Shown here: positions 421 through 54,137 of the stretch, piece after piece | Layout: each line of letters starts with the position of its first letter | Numbering within the stretch: position 1 is the stretch's first letter | From: Sphingobacteriales bacterium | GTDB lineage: Bacteria; Bacteroidota; Bacteroidia; Chitinophagales; Chitinophagaceae | DNA length: 54,163 nucleotides | Reading direction: 5' to 3' | NCBI GenBank assembly: GCA_023251235.1 | Contig: JAHEZE010000006.1 | Location: 1-54,163 of the forward strand | Made by a program: the position numbers and the translations under genes | The notes under the pieces: model-generated | The model's input: the letters and a program-made list of their open reading frames with translations, nothing else | Told to the model about the DNA's origin: nothing | Database searches by the model: none

Positions 421-440
421 CCTGCCTGCCGGCAGGCAGG
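421..440. repeat. CCTGCC palindromic repeat
   Basis: CCTGCCTGCCGGCAGGCAGG is a perfect 20-nt palindrome. The same core recurs with small changes at 4905-4925, 5178-5200, 24768-24791, 49425-49451, 49522-49548 and 54118-54137, so this is a dispersed family. Confidence 0.85.
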
Positions 441-49361: not shown

Positions 49362-49396
49362 AAAAAAAGCCATCCCGATTTATAATCAGGATGGCT
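49362..49396 (-). terminator. Third terminator downstream of tRNA-Gln
   Basis: 8-bp stem AGCCATCC/GGATGGCT, extended by GAT/ATC, followed on the minus strand by TTTTTTTATT. It ends the array of tRNA-tail copies and insulates the flavoenzyme gene. Confidence 0.8.
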
Positions 49397-49406
49397 CGGG
49401 ATTCTT

Positions 49407-49464
49407 GTTGACCCATAAGGATTTCCTGCCTGACTGCGTCACGCAGGCAGGGAACCTGACAGAC
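49407..49464 (-). pseudogene. tRNA-Gln 3'-end copy (distal), split by a palindrome
   Basis: The tail TTGACCCATAAGGATTT (plus-strand sense) and GAACCTGAC match the acceptor and T-arm of the intact tRNA. A 27-bp CCTGCC-family palindrome (49425-49451) sits between them, at the T-loop position. No anticodon or D-arm sequence is present. Confidence 0.75.
49425..49451. repeat. 27-bp palindrome in tRNA-tail copy (distal)
   Basis: CCTGCCTGACTGCGTCACGC followed by AGGCAGG: outer arms CCTGCC/GGCAGG, inner GCGT/ACGC. Same family as 421-440. Confidence 0.85.
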
Positions 49465-49470
49465 AAAATG

Positions 49471-49501
49471 AAAAAAAAAGTCAGAGAAAAACCTCTGACT
49501 T
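49471..49501 (-). terminator. Copy of the tRNA-Gln terminator
   Basis: Stem AAGTCAGAG/CTCTGACTT with an A/C-rich loop and a T-run on the minus strand. Identical in stem and loop to the terminator 100 bp away at 49571-49601. Confidence 0.85.
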
Positions 49502-49503
49502 AT

Positions 49504-49561
49504 GTTGACCAAATAGGATTCCCTGCCTGACTGCGTTACGCAGACAGGGAACCTGACAGAC
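49504..49561 (-). pseudogene. tRNA-Gln 3'-end copy (proximal), split by a palindrome
   Basis: Plus-strand TTGACCAAATAGGATTC and GAACCTGAC flank a 27-bp palindrome (49522-49548). Apart from a few changes in the acceptor strand, the flanks are the T-arm and acceptor of the intact tRNA. Confidence 0.75.
49522..49548. repeat. 27-bp palindrome in tRNA-tail copy (proximal)
   Basis: CCTGCCTGACTGCGTTACGC followed by AGACAGG; two differences from the distal copy. Inserted exactly between GGATTC and GAACC. Confidence 0.85.
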
Positions 49562-49570
49562 AGAATGAGA

Positions 49571-49601
49571 ATAAAAAAAGTCAGAGAAAAACCTCTGACT
49601 T
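49571..49601 (-). terminator. Terminator of tRNA-Gln
   Basis: 9-bp stem AAGTCAGAG/CTCTGACTT starting 4 nt after the tRNA 3' end, followed on the minus strand by TTTTTTTAT. Confidence 0.88.
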
Positions 49602-49604
49602 ATG

Positions 49605-49675
49605 TTGACCCATAAGGATTCGAACCTTAACTGACTGAACCAAAATCAGTAGTGCTACCATTACACCATGGGTCA
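49605..49675 (-). tRNA. tRNA-Gln (anticodon UUG)
   Basis: 71 nt on the minus strand. Acceptor TGACCCA/TGGGTCA, D-arm with GGTGTAATGGTAGCAC, anticodon stem ACTGA/TCAGT enclosing TTTTGGT (anticodon TTG at 34-36), and T-arm AAGGTTCGAATCCTT. CCA is not encoded. It is followed by a terminator and two partial copies of its own 3' end. Confidence 0.95.
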
Positions 49676-51057: not shown

Positions 51058-51417
51058 TTATTTTTTATTCTGTAATGAGGAACTAAATGCTGTTAACATT
51101 TTTTCTTCTTCCATTAGTTGGTTTAATGTTTCAACAATAAGAGGTTGTTTGCTGCAATTAATTTCTTTTGCAATCAATAATTGTGTTTCAAGTTCAAAAC
51201 ATGAACCTGATGAAATTTCTATAAACCTGTTATAGTCTTTGTCGCTGCTTCTGCTGCTTCCCTCTGCTATATTTGAAGGAATGGAAATACCTGACTTATT
51301 TATTTGCAGGCCCAAACCAAATTTTTCCTGTTGAGAAAATGATTCAGTGATCCGGCAACTATTAACTGCAATTTGAAATCCTTTTTGCCAGACTCTTAGT
51401 TCTTTAAAATTTCTCAT
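51058..51417 (-). CDS. Four-helix-bundle protein (23S rRNA intervening-sequence protein family)
   Basis: 119 residues of the S23/IVP four-helix-bundle family (PF05635-type): MRNFKELRVWQKGFQIAV, then INKSGISIPSNIAEGSSR, which is the family signature, and a conserved FIEISSGSCFELETQL helix. Members occur within 23S rRNA intervening sequences and as free-standing genes; the Avd protein of diversity-generating retroelements shares the fold. The function of free-standing copies is not established. No rRNA or reverse transcriptase is nearby. The gene is enclosed by an imperfect inverted repeat (51005-51026/51440-51461), and the right arm overlaps the cyanophycin synthetase stop. Confidence 0.9.
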   Translation of the reverse strand: MRNFKELRVWQKGFQIAVNSCRITESFSQQEKFGLGLQINKSGISIPSNIAEGSSRSSDKDYNRFIEISSGSCFELETQLLIAKEINCSKQPLIVETLNQLMEEEKMLTAFSSSLQNKK

Positions 51418-54097: not shown

Positions 54098-54117
54098 ATA
54101 AAAAAAATTGTTAAGCC

Positions 54118-54137
54118 CTGTCTGCCGGCAGGCAGGT
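54118..54137. repeat. CCTGCC palindromic repeat in the cphA leader
   Basis: CCTGTCTGCCGGCAGGCAGG differs from 421-440 by one base. It sits 20 bp upstream of the cphA start codon on the leader side. Confidence 0.8.

Follow-up and report, generated by a model that had tools for sequence, protein, structure and literature searches.

A tandem array of palindrome-split tRNA-Gln tails, probably the gene-less remnant of a tRNA-restoring GIY-YIG nuclease unit

The analysis of a 54,163-nucleotide stretch of DNA from a Sphingobacteriales bacterium (hereafter the window) reveals a tandem array behind an intact tRNA-Gln(UUG) gene, in which partial copies of this tRNA are split by a palindrome. The array is probably the ORF-less, tandemly amplified remnant of a GIY-YIG homing unit that restores the tRNA gene it enters, with the palindrome marking the interrupted cut site, and its most likely cause is a tRNA-targeting nuclease unit, not a hairpin-seeking palindrome. 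Because neither the array nor its contig holds a nuclease gene, the window is placed in this class by analogy, and we file the array only as a putative derivative of a GIY-YIG homing endonuclease unit. Across the genomes surveyed, the same architecture recurs at many tRNA genes and at tmRNA, the palindromes take loop positions, relatives free of the copies exist and, outside one tRNA-free group, the layout is linked to a GIY-YIG gene.

The intact tRNA-Gln(UUG) gene (anticodon TTG) lies on the minus strand at 49604..49675 (ARAGORN; Rfam RF00005, 63.2 bits), and on that strand it is followed by terminator A, a first split copy (T'1), a second terminator A, a second split copy (T'2) and terminator B. 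Terminator A, directly 3' of the tRNA at 49573..49603, is an inverted repeat with the stem AAGTCAGAG/CTCTGACTT and a T run. T'1 comprises a left part at 49549..49572, which by-eye comparison with the tRNA resolves into the 3' side of the anticodon arm and the 5' side of the T-arm with the end GGTTC, a 27-bp palindrome at 49522..49548 (pattern match; no strand assigned) and a right part at 49503..49521 that holds the 3' side of the T-arm and the 3' strand of the acceptor (from the sequence and a direct repeat). The second terminator A (49473..49502; direct and inverted repeat) leads into T'2, whose left part (49452..49472; sequence and direct repeat), 27-bp palindrome (49425..49451; pattern match, no strand) and right part (49404..49424; 3' side of the T-arm and acceptor end TTATGGGTCAAC, from the sequence) follow the same plan. 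The T-arm of T'2 reads AAATCC in place of the tRNA's GAATCC, and its acceptor end is that of the resident tRNA. Terminator B, unlike A in sequence, was read at about 49362..49397; all stranded parts lie on the minus strand. Elsewhere in the window, the translation of a 119-aa ORF at 51058-51417 (minus strand) has, by eye only, the look of an S23-type four-helix bundle.

The preliminary description of this DNA had reported two split tRNA-Gln tails, a duplicated terminator with a third one closing the array, and tandem amplification of the split unit, and these points hold: the tails are real, 97 bp apart and each cut in the T-loop by the 27-bp palindrome, terminator A occurs twice and B closes the array, and the array consists of direct repeats of 74 nt (49406-49479 and 49503-49576; 88% identical, 97 bp apart) and 49 nt (49473-49521 and 49573-49621; 94% identical, 100 bp apart). 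Both palindromes sit, as first described, between the T-loop halves GGATT(T/C)|GAACC of the plus strand with no tRNA base duplicated or lost at the joint; on the tRNA strand the split reads TTC|GA in T'1 and TTC|AA in T'2. Two of the initial claims need qualification. The palindrome is present twice, both copies being exact matches to CCTGCCTGACTGCGTNACGCAGNCAGG on the plus strand (none of 100 dinucleotide shuffles of the window contained a match, with up to 3 mismatches allowed), but it is imperfect, having by eye 11-bp arms and four extra bases in one arm. The copies do contain the acceptor and T-arm, but extend slightly further, TTCTGTCTGTCAGGTTC resembling by eye the 3' side of the anticodon arm. 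The T-loop GATTCGAAC of the intact tRNA (plus strand 49617-49625) matches the SegB motif RAWTSGAAC in a motif scan, and in the tail copies the palindrome splits this stretch after its fifth base. The copies are also unlike an ordinary second tRNA gene in decay, an origin that the first description had set against its own reading, and the T-loop site recurs in other genomes and isotypes.

Duplicated tRNA 3' ends are a classical sign of an integrase island, and the T-loop is a known integrase crossover zone, so that the array could be taken for att repeats left at a tRNA 3' end by excision. We consider this very unlikely: the repeats lie 97 bp apart and no ORF of at least 80 aa is listed in 49404-49675, hence no integrase gene between tRNA-Gln and its repeats, while the gene carried by such units elsewhere is a GIY-YIG nuclease. 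A palindrome in mid-repeat is moreover not expected of att repeats, and mirror arrangements keep the 5' half of the tRNA instead. A functional small RNA built on the tRNA tails, in which the palindrome would form an extended hairpin and transcription would end at its own terminator, agrees with the terminator after each copy, and the sequence would permit read-through transcription from the tRNA; set against this, palindrome sequence, position and even arm vary between loci and tRNA alone among Rfam families reaches gathering score in the window, and we consider a small RNA very unlikely.

The initial statement that no element is present stands for the window's contig (C154), where a PF01541 profile search returned no GIY-YIG match, and the array contains no nuclease gene of its own. 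It fails for the class, because the same layout elsewhere, including at three tRNA loci of the same genome, carries a GIY-YIG gene. The recurrent layout is an intact tRNA, a small GIY-YIG gene and a hairpin-split partial copy (T') of the same tRNA, or the mirror order. Exact palindrome matches alone led to nine such loci (palindrome-chosen loci): six with intact tRNA, GIY-YIG ORF and split tail (L038, L041, L049, L070, L071, L074), one with gene and split copy in a stretch that ends upstream before a tRNA (L062), and two in mirror order, with split copy, gene and intact tRNA (L050, L080). Proteins of the first six are 83-90 aa long (inner starts for L041 and L074), and most loci have a terminator between tRNA and gene, which by eye is absent in L074. 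All nine proteins match Pfam PF01541 (GIY-YIG) with invariant Y, YxG, R and E, and the gene-bearing units thus encode the catalytic Tyr, Tyr-x-Gly, Arg and Glu of the domain. Among solved chains, UPF0213 proteins and SLX1 come nearest by profile, and the sole NCBIfam match is a weak one to a group I intron endonuclease in 3/9 proteins. A defence-system reading was examined and rejected, the best PADLOC E-value being 6e-5 with PDC-S14 in 3/9 proteins. In L038, L041, L049, L062 and L074 the GIY-YIG frame extends across the tRNA piece and terminates within the palindrome.

The genome from which the window derives (3.23 Mb, 181 contigs) has 8 PF01541 hits, five of them small proteins. Three of the five genes lie directly 3' of tRNA-Gly, tRNA-Ala and tRNA-Arg, within 300 bp, one lies directly 3' of tmRNA, and the fifth is in L092, a stretch in which neither tRNA nor tmRNA is present. 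All three tRNA units include a second copy interrupted by an insert, in the T-arm (fold z -5.3), the anticodon arm (z -4.1) and the D-loop (z 0.6); the D-loop insert belongs to the tRNA-Arg copy (L096), and its z value does not establish a hairpin. At the tmRNA locus (L091:1047-1773, contig C40), a tmRNA with the tag GNTQYAMAA precedes, on the same strand, a small GIY-YIG gene and then a degenerate tail containing a palindrome that by eye adjoins CCTCCAC; tmRNA stands beside small GIY-YIG genes in L256 and L270 as well.

The broken copies were compared across the 72 gene hits that have a tRNA at most 300 bp away, counting palindrome-chosen loci; 61 of these hits have a second partial copy of the adjacent tRNA above shuffles and 11 do not. 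An insert of at least 12 nt is present in 48 of the 61 T', 40 of these in loci that were not palindrome-chosen, and 28 of the 40 inserts reach a fold z < -2 (the median over all 40 being -3.3; the twelve others are in L096, L100, L104, L109, L112, L133 minus, L137, L139, L242, L243, L249 and L250, the L109 row being an artefact in which the altered copy was taken as reference). Among the 13/61 T' without such an insert, by eye a hairpin of similar length replaces or frames one arm in L106, L107, L136, L145 and L247, and in L152 and L261 T' looks unbroken. Altered second copies are sometimes called as tRNAs with unlikely anticodons by ARAGORN (Stop in L109, Pro in L093, ??? in L152), so that tRNA counts can be affected. 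Inserts lie in or beside a tRNA loop in 34/40 cases (50% expected; binomial p=5e-6 with rows taken as independent), and since L140/L141 and L120/L146 are close relatives, the events are fewer than the rows. Ten of the 40 fall exactly at the T-loop bond TTC|GA (L098, L102, L104, L245, L246, L248, L249, L251, L254, L272) with several different sequences, and five come after nt 22, where the D-loop ends (L129, L131, L135, L241, L242).

The geometry of T' provides a further constraint. The copy retains its 3' end where the order is tRNA-gene-T' and its 5' end in the mirror order, with a median of 0 nt missing on the far side, while the gene-side end lies a median of 19.5 or 12.5 nt beyond the insert. 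Insert position correlates with the gene-side end of T' (Spearman 0.78, n=26; 0.56, n=14 in the other arrangement), a plain rank correlation that overstates the boundary effect, as an insert necessarily lies inside T' and this alone yields a mean correlation of 0.43; under a constrained null the P-value is 0.007 for the n=26 set, and 0.036 for the shorter gene-side flank. This geometry would fit, rather than prove, a joint between an element-borne piece of tRNA and a displaced host half. It also bears on a neutral explanation, in which duplicates arise through the nuclease unit or unequal crossing over and palindromes later land anywhere in the useless copy, selection sparing the intact one. 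Palindromes of the same kinds are dispersed in the same genomes, it is the dispensable copy that carries the insert, and T' would need no function. We nevertheless regard neutral accumulation as rather unlikely, given that insert positions are far from uniform (the 10/40 and five at single bonds noted above), that they track the gene-side end and that many T' are otherwise nearly unchanged.

In its own genome the 27-bp palindrome has 2 copies at up to 3 mismatches, both in the array; none occurs in five same-genus genomes, and at up to 2 mismatches it occurs in 4 genomes, the own one included, of a 395-genome phylum draw. An exact scan with a pattern spanning both window forms found 49 other stretches, by title 41 of Bacteroidota type, 5 labelled only as uncultured bacterium, 2 Neomarinimicrobiota and 1 Patescibacteria (L050, whose bin may reflect a binning error). 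By eye, 18/49 host the palindrome in a tRNA-like copy: 16 in the T-loop region, mostly at TTC|GA on one strand and in either palindrome orientation, one in the anticodon loop (L050) and one at the border of anticodon stem and variable region (L080). Isotypes called near the T-loop palindromes include Glu, Met, Leu, Arg, Phe and SeC, and no tRNA was called near L035, L037, L051, L062 and L067. The remaining 31/49 stretches, 12 of them from one bin, have the palindrome outside tRNA-like copies. Two copies hold two palindromes each: around L074:3678-3704, a tRNA-Arg copy has one in the D-loop and the 27-bp form inside the anticodon, and at L037:388-560 a tRNA-Leu-like copy has, by eye, one in the anticodon loop and the 27-bp form in the T-loop.

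A structure-guided insertion, in which a mobile palindrome targets hairpin loops for their structure and simply comes to light in dispensable tRNA copies, had been suggested from the precision of the window's joints. The loop positions of 34/40 inserts agree with it, as do, weakly, dispersed CCTGCC palindromes, 8/33 of which lie, at p<=0.05, in the centre of an inverted repeat formed by their flanks (Fisher 9e-4; Mann-Whitney p=0.13; 33 of 43 tested, the ten dropped being in tRNA copies, members of one repeat family or near an end); in L195 and L203 a dispersed palindrome is centred in another inverted repeat, for example CCCGATAGC|TATCGGG. Outside tRNA copies, however, the 27-bp palindrome occupies a hairpin-loop site at p<=0.05 in only 1/21 cases (Mann-Whitney p=0.58; 16 of the 31 non-tRNA stretches, near-identical contexts omitted, plus 5 phylum-draw loci), so the palindrome is not a general hairpin seeker and a general rule of hairpin into hairpin is not borne out. 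The same bonds (TTC|GA; the D-loop end after nt 22) are moreover taken by different palindromes, which points to the tRNA site as determinant, and several T' have their entire anticodon arm exchanged, not just its loop filled. We consequently judge structure-guided insertion to be unlikely. A single mobile 27-bp element was rejected as the cause, given the two sites in the own genome, the five same-genus genomes with none and the different palindromes at other loci. A viral origin was likewise discarded: viral sequences yielded 0 exact palindromes, and of 38 viral stretches matching one peptide pattern of the nuclease alignment none was confirmed by tblastn. A related 20-bp palindrome, CCTGCCTGCCGGCAGGCAGG, has 27 sites in the own genome at up to 2 mismatches, including window positions 421-440 and 54117-54136; with 27 dispersed palindromes of one kind, some palindromes could have landed later.

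The GIY-YIG units are common in these bacteria. A match to the nine-protein profile was found in 31/50 genomes of the order sample (E<=1e-10) and in 30/61 genomes of the phylum draw (E<=1e-12). In the order, 37/73 profile hits have a tRNA no more than 300 bp away, and for each of the 37 there is one on the same strand (the 73 exclude L103, a duplicate of L135, and hits are not always whole genes). The corresponding figure for the phylum draw is 21/32 (27 best-match loci; 98 matches in all), or 24/32 within 700 bp with tmRNA counted, some tRNA-less loci lying near a contig end. Tandem arrangements occur here too: L268:1429-4324 has eight 364-bp units, each with a GIY-YIG gene and, by eye, a broken tRNA-Met-like tail, in a stretch with no tRNA called, and L269 has 3 gene hits in tandem.

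In a tree of 85 nuclease proteins, an 18-row group without a tRNA within 700 bp is supported at 81/83 (17 of them at 98/93), and over 75 rows tRNA adjacency requires 12 changes, where none of 300 shuffles needs fewer than 18. The site class of the inserts follows the tree, with 4 changes in the tRNA-gene-T' order against a shuffled minimum of 5 (n=28, 0/300) and 12 in all 39 rows against a shuffled mean of 17.6 (1/300). The signal is weaker in the 30 rows that were not palindrome-chosen (11 changes vs 14.1; 8/300), where arrangement is not clear (6 vs 7.8, 28/300; all rows, 7 vs 9.7, 6/300).

The comparison with genomes lacking the copies, which the preliminary description had proposed, yielded such sites. 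Seventeen tRNA-Gln loci were compared (L224-L240, L224 being the window); 15/16 of the others show no tail copy above shuffles (600 nt downstream; 288 nt in L234) and by eye have one terminator each, thus presenting the empty site of a gene-restoring mobile ORF element. One copy-free locus, L225, has a tRNA-Gln identical to that of the window. In L229, from a same-genus genome, the tRNA end and following bases are by eye repeated behind another hairpin by CGAACCC, in a short repeat that runs into the contig end and is not above shuffles. The empty site was sought through tRNA-Gln itself, since tracing synteny by the adjacent oxidase gene turned up only distant matches (25-29% identity), from two same-genus genomes. 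By eye, the left part of the window T', TTCTGTCTGTC-AGGTTC, is closer to the tRNA-Gln alleles of G004 and G038 than to the resident TTCAGTCAGTT, and may possibly come from a foreign or older tRNA-Gln allele, two differences being no proof. A tRNA-Gln unit with the nuclease gene present exists in L250, where by eye the anticodon arm of T' is a long hairpin; among the loci compared, no tRNA-Gln unit combines the gene with the 27-bp palindrome.

From these observations we infer an origin in a tRNA-restoring nuclease unit, including its mobility, the cleavage of the T-loop, the sequence of steps, where the hairpins come from and why the inserted piece is mostly of this kind. A full unit would consist of a tRNA 3' end, often a terminator, the GIY-YIG gene, a short piece of the same tRNA and a palindrome, and the gene-bearing loci have the architecture of a gene-restoring element, with intact tRNA and T' on either side of an ORF and the far side complete. 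The nuclease would cut in the T-loop of a tRNA gene, and the break would be repaired with one end paired to the tRNA and the other to T'. Insertion would thereby bring in the tRNA end, terminator, gene, tRNA piece and hairpin and rebuild an intact tRNA upstream, whereas the original 3' end would be pushed downstream and joined through the palindrome to the unit's own tRNA piece, forming T'. The palindrome would interrupt the nuclease's target sequence, as an intron does in intron homing. Repeated breaks in the restored tRNA, repaired from T' and the tRNA, would add tandem units, and loss of the nuclease gene in the window would leave the 97-bp units. Of the parts, terminator A presumably arrived with the element, and terminator B would be the original terminator of the tRNA-Gln gene. 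Against this proposal, the presumed cut site is still present in the intact tRNA, and any homing model has to account for this.

More tentatively, we suggest the possibility of a widespread bacterial, chromosomal selfish class that uses a GIY-YIG nuclease to home into tRNA and tmRNA genes and rebuilds the RNA gene, a captured hairpin replacing the intron in the displaced copy, and whose ORF-less 97-bp offspring spread in trans. If true, this would account for the clustering of small GIY-YIG genes and partial tRNA copies behind tRNAs in these genomes, and would offer a testable case of an element that enters an essential RNA gene without killing its host. Each palindrome would then mark one cut site, providing a natural record of where the nucleases cut. 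The parts are known from phages and mitochondria; among the open-access papers listed we found no precedent for the bacterial, tRNA-restoring and hairpin-scarred form, nor any treatment of chromosomal tRNA-GIY-YIG units with broken tRNA copies.

Among known palindromes, REP-type repeats (REPINs and GTAG/CGTC-tagged REPs) are described in the portion of PMC3733652 drawn on here as dispersed bacterial palindromes of 20-40 bp. The present palindromes are likewise short and dispersed, with 2 copies of the 27-bp form and 27 of the related 20-bp form in the own genome, but the 27-bp form bears no GTAG or CGTC end tag, ends in CCTGCC/GGCAGG and has varying flanks; unlike that of REPs, its placement in tRNAs seems to be dictated by the tRNA site. 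In fungal mtDNA, double-hairpin elements are small hairpin inserts in loops of structured RNA genes, and by eye the T' inserts of L090, L245, L248 and L272 resemble double hairpins, although in different genomes. Fungal mitochondrial mobile ORFs (Allomyces atp6; Glomus atp6, atp9, cox2 and nad3) create gene hybrids, and in the parts of that account used here a nuclease ORF brings a replacement gene end, so that the gene is restored and the native end displaced, as proposed for the tRNA units; they concern protein genes and organelles, and those parts describe no palindrome at the junction (PMC3630166).

The closest comparison is with SegB of phages T4/T6. The excerpts considered portray it as a free-standing GIY-YIG homing endonuclease in tRNA clusters that cuts in tRNA genes and drives tandem amplification of tRNA and nuclease gene through recombination (PMC13096335; PMC2988022), and free-standing GIY-YIG enzymes are cited there as cutting the donor allele inefficiently (PMC13096335). 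Its motif RAWTSGAAC, found at 23/83 mapped sites, raises cutting without being strictly required (PMC13096335, same excerpts). This motif is the reverse strand of the T-loop GTTCGAATC, where the palindromes sit, and it occurs in 21/46 tRNAs called in the own-genome loci, a count to be read with the motif's origin in mind, as it was measured for the phage enzyme. By these descriptions the two systems share a GIY-YIG enzyme encoded among tRNA genes and tandem amplification. They differ in that the present units are chromosomal and the window array lacks a nuclease gene, and in that the SegB excerpts contain neither a pair of restored and broken tRNAs nor inserted palindromes, the stem "palindrom" being absent from PMC13096335. 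If the proposed class is real, it would extend the reach of this tRNA-cutting phage enzyme to bacterial chromosomes and to tmRNA.
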